Part shown: in pieces, positions 22,660 to 39,430 of the stretch
How the letters are laid out: each line of letters opens with the position of its first letter
Position numbering within the stretch: position 1 is the stretch's first letter
DNA from: Clostridia bacterium
GTDB taxonomy: Bacteria; Bacillota; Clostridia; TANB77; CAG-465
Assembly: GCA_017536445.1 (NCBI GenBank)
Contig: JAFXHJ010000018.1
Coordinates: forward strand, 94,772-148,232
Direction of reading: 5' to 3'
Length of the DNA stretch: 53,461 nt
Translations under genes and position numbers: made by a program
Notes under the pieces: generated by a model
What the model saw: the letters and a program-made list of their open reading frames with translations, nothing else
Database searches by the model: none
What the model was told of the DNA's origin: nothing

Positions 22660-22689
22660 TTGACAATTTCATATTACCTAAGGTATAAT
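22660..22689 (+). promoter_or_regulatory. Strong sigma-A promoter of the small RNA
   Basis: Perfect TTGACA (22660-22665) and perfect TATAAT (22684-22689) with an 18-base spacer. Transcription should begin near 22696. No protein gene follows before the terminator at 22830. Confidence 0.85.
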
Positions 22690-22695
22690 GTATAT

Positions 22696-22860
22696 AATAT
22701 TAATGGTACTGAAAAGTACTAGTATAAATGTTAGTCGCCACCTTGTTGGCGGGGTATAAATGCACAAGTGGACGAAATGTAATTCGCAACCCTACTTGCG
22801 AACAATAAATGCGTAGGTGGACAAATTAGAAATCTATCCCATATGGGATAGATTTTCTTA
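22696..22860 (+). ncRNA. Small RNA with two tandem predicted pseudoknots
   Basis: A transcript of about 165 bases between a consensus promoter and a strong terminator. Unit 1: stem CGCCA/TGGCG (22736-22740, 22747-22751); its loop bases CTTGT (22742-22746) are complementary to ACAAG (22764-22768). Unit 2: stem TTCGCAA/TTGCGAA (22783-22789, 22796-22802); loop CCTAC (22791-22795) is complementary to GTAGG (22813-22817). In both, ATAAATGC precedes and TGGAC follows the second pseudoknot strand. Stem and loop sequences differ while pairing is kept, which argues for RNA structure. A GAAA-capped hairpin at 22706-22719 followed by ATAAATG may be a third, partial unit. The family is unknown to me. Confidence 0.75.
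22830..22860 (+). terminator. Intrinsic terminator of the small RNA
   Basis: AAATCTATCCC (22830-22840), loop ATAT, GGGATAGATTT (22845-22855), then TTCTTATCT. It separates the RNA from the independent rpmF promoter. Confidence 0.9.
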
Positions 22861-22924
22861 TCTATAAGGGGTAATAATGAAGATAGAATTTAAGTACTAA
22901 ATTTATAACTTTAATAAAAATCAC

Positions 22925-22953
22925 TTGACAATATTTAACTCGTGCTATATAAT
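22925..22953 (+). promoter_or_regulatory. Sigma-A promoter of rpmF
   Basis: TTGACA (22925-22930) and TATAAT (22948-22953) with an ideal 17-base spacer, about 58 bases before rpmF. It shows that rpmF is transcribed separately from the preceding small RNA. Confidence 0.85.
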
Positions 22954-38214: not shown

Positions 38215-38546
38215 ACAAGTATTTCTAACAATCGCGCAAGTTTAACTTGTGAGGAAAGTCCGGGCACCTCAAGGTAGTAATGGTAGATAACGTCTACTGG
38301 GAGTGATCCTAAGGAAAGTGCAACAGAAAATAACCGCCACTTATGTGGTAAGGGTGAAAATGTGAGGTAAGAGCTCACAAATTTGTATGGTGACATACAG
38401 ATGGTGTAAACCCCATTTGGTGCAACACAGATAGAGAAGGTTAAGGTTACCTTGCCGTCTTTTCGAAATGTGGCTAGAGGTGTATAGTGATATACATCCC
38501 AGATTAATGATTGTTTAAAACAGAACCCGGCTTACGAAATGCTTGT
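38215..38546 (+). ncRNA. rnpB: RNase P RNA
   Basis: Catalytic RNA of RNase P, which trims tRNA 5' ends. P1 forms between ACAAGTATTTC (38215-38225) and GAAATGCTTGT (38536-38546). GAGGAAAGTCCGGGC near 38250, ACAGAAAATAACCGCC, AAGGGTGAAAA, GGTAAGAGCTCAC and the 3' AACCCGGCTTA are conserved family segments. The start 11 bases after the preceding gene means that its promoter lies inside that gene or that it is processed from a longer transcript. Confidence 0.95.
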
Positions 38547-38550
38547 AAAA

Positions 38551-39195: not shown

Positions 39196-39430
39196 TTAAA
39201 TGCGATGACAAGGGAAGAGTAATAAACTAAACTAATCAATAGAGAATAACACCTAGGCTGGAAGTGTTAGATTGGTCTTTATGAAAGACACCCTATGAGC
39301 AGACTTATGAAAAGTAAGTACGTGTATTGCACGTTAAAATAAATGAGAAGTAAATAGGGTGGCACCACGAAAGAATATATCTCTCGTCCCTAATATGTTT
39401 AAACATATTAGAGGCGAGAGCCTTTTTATA
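39196..39430 (+). promoter_or_regulatory. T-box leader (tRNA-Asp sensing) of aspS
   Basis: T-box RNAs read uncharged tRNA and let transcription continue when it is bound. The conserved AGGGTGGCACCACG T-box is at 39356-39369. The terminator is CTCTCG (39381-39386) pairing with CGAGAG (39415-39420), then CCTTTTT. Stem I contains the GAC triplet at 39287-39289 in the specifier region, matching an Asp codon and the aspartyl-tRNA synthetase gene downstream. Confidence 0.92.

Follow-up and report, generated by a model that had tools for sequence, protein, structure and literature searches.

Descriptions of type III toxin-antitoxin systems present them as antitoxin-terminator-toxin operons. Surveys of them take the toxin protein as their starting point and are therefore blind to antitoxins that lack one. 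Promoter, repeats, terminator, and toxin gene form the defining order of these systems (PMC5086642). In CptIN of Eubacterium rectale, the crystallised antitoxin repeat, CptI_Er, folds over 45 nt into an H-type pseudoknot whose loop L1 is a single base and whose loop L2 is A27–G35, and its antitoxicity is abolished by a change of A29 or by deletion of U30 (PMC4627078). This L2 reads AUAUAAAUG, as taken from a primer given in the same paper. When the system is intact, the toxin CptN processes its own repeats, and these in turn capture it (PMC4627078; PMC5086642). ToxIN/AbiQ, which belongs to another type III subfamily, shares the tandem pseudoknot RNA antitoxin, the terminator, and the ribonuclease toxin, but has repeats of 34–36 nt, other pseudoknot loops, and a hexameric complex (PMC5086642). 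Antitoxins are also found without a toxin: in phages, pseudo-ToxI repeats act in trans to neutralise a type III toxin (PMC3475682), and orphan type II protein antitoxins, such as chromosomal CcdA, have been proposed to neutralise incoming toxins (PMC7354431). In the literature searched, of which coverage was partial, type III antitoxin arrays that lack a toxin were not found described for bacterial chromosomes. The locus presented here is very likely such a case, a CptI array that has become an orphan.

The locus lies at 22660–22862 of the window, i.e., the whole stretch of 53,461 nucleotides that was analyzed, from the genome of a Clostridia bacterium (G000). A consensus promoter is followed there by a 5′ hairpin, then by two H-type pseudoknots and a Rho-independent terminator; all of these, like the toxin stump and rpmF described below, are on the + strand. 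The order of promoter, two tandem repeats, terminator, and toxin start is shared with CptIN of E. rectale (PDB 4RMO; PMC4627078), while the repeats are longer (49–50 nt against 45), the helices and linker have other sequences, and a 7-codon stump stands where E. rectale has the toxin gene. The sigma-70-type promoter, TTGACA-18-TATAAT (22660–22689), matches the consensus at 12/12 positions, and TATAATGTATATAATA, which continues from it, is the conserved start region of the CptI family. A leader hairpin, TGGTACT-GAAA-AGTACTA, follows at 22704–22721. Repeat 1 (22730–22778; 53.8 bits with the covariance model described below) has the helix S1 CGCCA/TGGCG (22736–22740/22747–22751), L1 of the single base C22741, the helix S2 CTTGT/ACAAG (22742–22746/22764–22768), L2 GGGTATAAATGC with AUAAAUG at 22756–22762, and the linker TGGAC (22769–22773). 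Repeat 2 (22779–22828; 74.1 bits) has S1 TTCGCAA/TTGCGAA (22783–22789/22796–22802), C22790 as L1, S2 CCTAC/GTAGG (22791–22795/22813–22817), L2 CAATAAATGC with AUAAAUG at 22805–22811, and again TGGAC (22818–22822). All four helices are Watson-Crick throughout. The terminator (22829–22862, hairpin at 22829–22856) comes directly 3′ of the two repeats, as in CptI antitoxins, and the next gene, rpmF for ribosomal protein L32 (22925–23205), is unrelated and has its own promoter at 22925–22953, again a 12/12 match. The original prediction had described a promoter and a terminator around the RNA, two tandem H-type pseudoknots, and a transcription unit independent of rpmF, and each of these descriptions holds. 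The strand carrying the locus folds at z = −3.7 against shuffles, a value from a method that cannot represent pseudoknots.

Relatives were first searched for with the element ATAAATGC-N5-TGGAC, of which the window has exactly two copies where chance would give 0.02. Among 36 genomes of the same family, the element search found the repeat in other genera. At one locus, L009, two repeats come first, then a terminator, and after it an ORF beginning MVIENGKFYFLKDEFFDEFKD, which matches the NCBIfam CptIN equivalog NF047359 at 7.2e-40 (score 136, cut-off 90 bits) and the crystallised E. rectale CptN (PDB 4RMO) at 1.6e-18. The CptN gene at this locus (L009 1092–1436, minus strand, genome G019) is frameshifted, either really or by an assembly error; other genomes have intact copies. 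With a covariance model made from eight repeats, in which the S1 helix alone is encoded, the repeat of about 49 nt was found in 98 of 336 genomes of the order. The matches listed comprise 150 units in 95 arrays, and CptN genes positioned independently with NF047359 lie 3′ on the same strand in 54 of these 95, at a gap of 35–134 bp (median 86) and in many genera of the order. The window RNA is therefore almost certainly a CptI antitoxin array of a type III (CptIN) toxin-antitoxin system. Rather than founding a new RNA family, it belongs to a known class and is in an unusual state, orphan and conserved. In intact cptIN loci of the order, such as L152, L154, and L164, which define the family that includes the window array, the start region, leader hairpin, spacing, and a near-identical repeat 2 are shared with the window, whereas CptN lies 3′ of these arrays and not of that in the window. 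S2 of window repeat 1 (CTTGT/ACAAG) is rare; relatives usually have CCTGT/ACAGG or CCTAT/ATAGG.

The RNA had at first been left unplaced, as a tandem-pseudoknot motif of Clostridia or a candidate riboswitch, and a model search of Rfam and clostridial genomes had been proposed. The outcome in genomes is given above; in Rfam, the window RNA has no gathering-level match, and up to E 10 merely chance eukaryotic families appear (E 1–3). A new riboswitch or unclassified motif would agree with the Rfam result, but 54 arrays among the matches listed precede CptN genes in many genera and the structure matches that of crystallised CptI, so that this reading, dropped once the repeats turned up before CptN genes, is now extremely improbable. 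The family appeared unknown because Rfam has no CptI model. A CptI covariance model would close this gap, so that the RNA would no longer be reported afresh as an unknown motif. Elsewhere in the window, Rfam gives ordinary matches to RNase P RNA (class A; 38216–38549) and a T-box leader (39196–39394). Weak matches to the repeat model occur in G020 and G024 (L088 1601 and the L089 2100 region), where a near-identical RNA-like stretch with GAGGTGGACAAATGTG is followed by a terminator-like hairpin; these are probably not CptI.

Both helices of the pseudoknot are conserved as pairings. Of the 135 model hits aligned, 104 are distinct. Paired cells amount to 97.5% in S1 and 94.8% in S2, and every one of the 10 pairs shows two-sided changes. 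Such changes total 122 cells for S1 and S2 together against a shuffle mean of 29, and 85 against 24 for S2 alone; as the sequences are related, these shuffle counts are not probabilities. Because S2 is absent from the search model, its covariation tests the pseudoknot independently of the search, and slid controls for S2 are only 19–52% paired. The S2 helices differ in 48 of 49 adjacent repeat pairs of the family, plausibly keeping one repeat from pairing with the next. The original prediction was right that the helix strands differ between the two units while pairing stays perfect. It took this as evidence of compensatory change, but the difference is a standing feature of the arrays and, taken alone, no evidence of a recent change of that kind. 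At the loops, L1 is a single base in each window repeat, and the AUAAAUG in each L2 is identical, at the sequence level, to A29–G35 of CptI_Er at the same place and includes the two bases essential there. The loops of CptI type, namely a short L1 and an A-rich L2 with an A-minor twist, are accordingly predicted for the window repeats from their sequence. About 40 distinct leaders have the start region TATAATGAATATAATA and, directly after it, a hairpin of 6–12 pairs and variable sequence. Some of the shorter leader hairpins, including that of the window, are individually no better than shuffles, and it is the shared position that carries the argument. A third, degenerate pseudoknot, which had been suggested at 22706–22719, was rejected, for the conserved leader hairpin occupies that place in the relatives.

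What the description of a stand-alone RNA, correct in itself, had overlooked is the toxin gene that normally follows and is missing here. An intact CptN gene is absent from the window locus, and right behind the terminator, at 22866–22900, there is a ribosome-binding site, AAGGGG, and 5 nt past it a 7-codon stump, ATG AAG ATA GAA TTT AAG TAC TAA, i.e., MKIEFKY*. The stump matches the N-terminus of intact CptN, M-x-I-E; it is short, and peptides starting M[KIVLQD][IV]E are found at only 6 of the 2177 ATGs in the window. Longer and clearer stumps lie behind other toxin-less arrays, for example MQINVGCFYFIKY* (L124) and MQIDVGYFY* (L129), and in L127 a CptN with an internal deletion lies behind the array; toxin loss with the antitoxin kept has therefore happened repeatedly. 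At the window locus, the cis toxin has very probably been lost. The array could instead act in trans on a CptN-type toxin encoded at another site and either diverged or missing from the assembly; the genome is a draft in 21 contigs, and type III toxins diverge fast. This is improbable: no CptN/ToxN was found in G000 with PF13958, NF047359, or a local profile of 12 CptN sequences at E up to 10, none was found with these three in G035, the one further species sampled from the genus, the estimated completeness of the G000 assembly is 100%, and the stump sits at the cis position. Likewise, no further array copies were found in G000 by BLAST, and the RNA model returned the two window repeats alone.

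The array is present in G035 at the same site, between a P-type ATPase gene and rpmF. There, too, the terminator is followed by a short reading frame, MIIEFKH*, the counterpart of MKIEFKY* in the window. Between the species, 2 of 70 sites in the two pseudoknot cores have changed, against 157 of 943 four-fold degenerate sites in nine neighboring genes (Fisher p about 5e-4), and when the leader is added to the cores, 3 of 114 sites differ (p about 5e-6). Both core changes fall outside the five-pair core of S1, S2, and AUAAAUG. The promoter hexamers and the leader hairpin (TGGTACT-GAAA-AGTACTA in both) are kept, and the terminator stem of G035 is altered in sequence but retains its pairing via paired changes. 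Since the cores change so little compared with four-fold sites, the orphan array seems to be maintained, which is suggestive of purifying selection in this one species pair. It may be asked whether the locus is rather a non-functional relic, in which the toxin is gone and the antitoxin is drifting and yet to be erased. The stump fits such a history, toxin-first loss is the expected path, as a cell that lost the antitoxin before the toxin would die, and the linker TGGAC has become TGATC in both repeats of G035 (L081 3824–3921 compared with window 22730–22828). The linker, however, varies among intact cptIN loci as well, and the scarcity of core changes, together with the promoter hexamers, leader hairpin, and terminator pairing retained in both species, argues against drift, so that a relic appears rather unlikely. 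The identical linker change in both repeats suggests gene conversion between them or another concerted change. Co-option of the array, be it into a regulatory small RNA or into the leader of rpmF or of other cellular genes, would also account for an array with its own promoter and terminator that is kept without a toxin. It is nonetheless hardly probable, for rpmF has a promoter of its own, the conserved positions are those of CptI (L2, S1, and S2), and the genes 3′ of other toxin-less arrays are unrelated.

The preferred reading is that of a maintained orphan antitoxin. From its own promoter to its own terminator, the locus would give an RNA of about 165 nt with the leader hairpin and the two repeats, and we infer that this RNA is transcribed and can bind CptN. 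In an intact system, CptN, a ribonuclease, processes a precursor of this kind to single repeats, which then hold it in a toxin-RNA complex. Here, on this reading, deletion of the toxin gene predates the split between the two species sampled from the genus, and its first codons and the RNA are what remains. When a related cptIN module enters on a mobile element, the resident repeats would capture its CptN, and a carrier of the array could lose the incoming element unpoisoned (anti-addiction) or tolerate it. To judge from the comparisons above, the window array may well now serve in this way, as an anti-addiction or immunity RNA. The trans neutralisation proposed is that of the toxin-less pseudo-ToxI repeats; those are phage-borne, used in counter-defence, and of the ToxIN family, whereas the window array is chromosomal (PMC3475682). 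With chromosomal CcdA it shares the state of an antitoxin without a toxin, and differs in being RNA and not protein (PMC7354431). CptI antitoxins tested are strictly specific, with no cross-protection among toxins 35–44% identical (PMC4627078), and protection would therefore be limited to closely related toxins. As window repeat 2 is near-identical to repeat 2 of intact loci, protection against the toxins of those relatives is plausible. No viral contigs with the repeat were found by three exact patterns, whose reach does not extend to diverged copies.

The RNA-based search indicates that toxin-less CptI arrays are common in the order, with at least one conserved between species. Among the matches listed, 41 of the 95 arrays have no CptN 3′; nine of the 41 have less than 600 bp of 3′ sequence and three lie directly behind a CptN gene, and clear toxin-less arrays number about 28 of 95, including that of the window and apart from the deleted copy in L127. 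Toxin stumps follow several of them, and about nine toxin-less arrays among the matches listed are just 5′ of a large serine recombinase gene, often behind a PIN-domain gene. Probably, the recombinase-linked arrays represent a mobile element carrying an antitoxin array. Three toxin-less arrays, L117 (G063:C11), L125 (G144:C39), and L147 (G313:C5), combine repeats of the window subtype with a repeat of E. rectale type, copied exactly or nearly so; elsewhere in the order, repeats of that type stand before a CptN gene of their own. It is possible, and put forward tentatively, that toxin-less CptI arrays are widespread RNA immunity modules, either repeats kept after toxin loss or repeats on mobile elements beside large serine recombinases, and that they sometimes mix CptIN subtypes so that one RNA disarms several toxins. 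If CptN from outside is indeed neutralised by the arrays, these would be the RNA equivalent of anti-addiction antitoxins and influence what mobile elements can persist. The arrays directly 5′ of a large serine recombinase, a protein with Resolvase and Recombinase domains, include those of L117, L120, L122, L123, L130, L132, L146, and L147. In L132 (G203:C2), L144 (G295:C7), and L150 (G325:C58) a second CptI array lies right behind the toxin gene, giving the order array-CptN-array.
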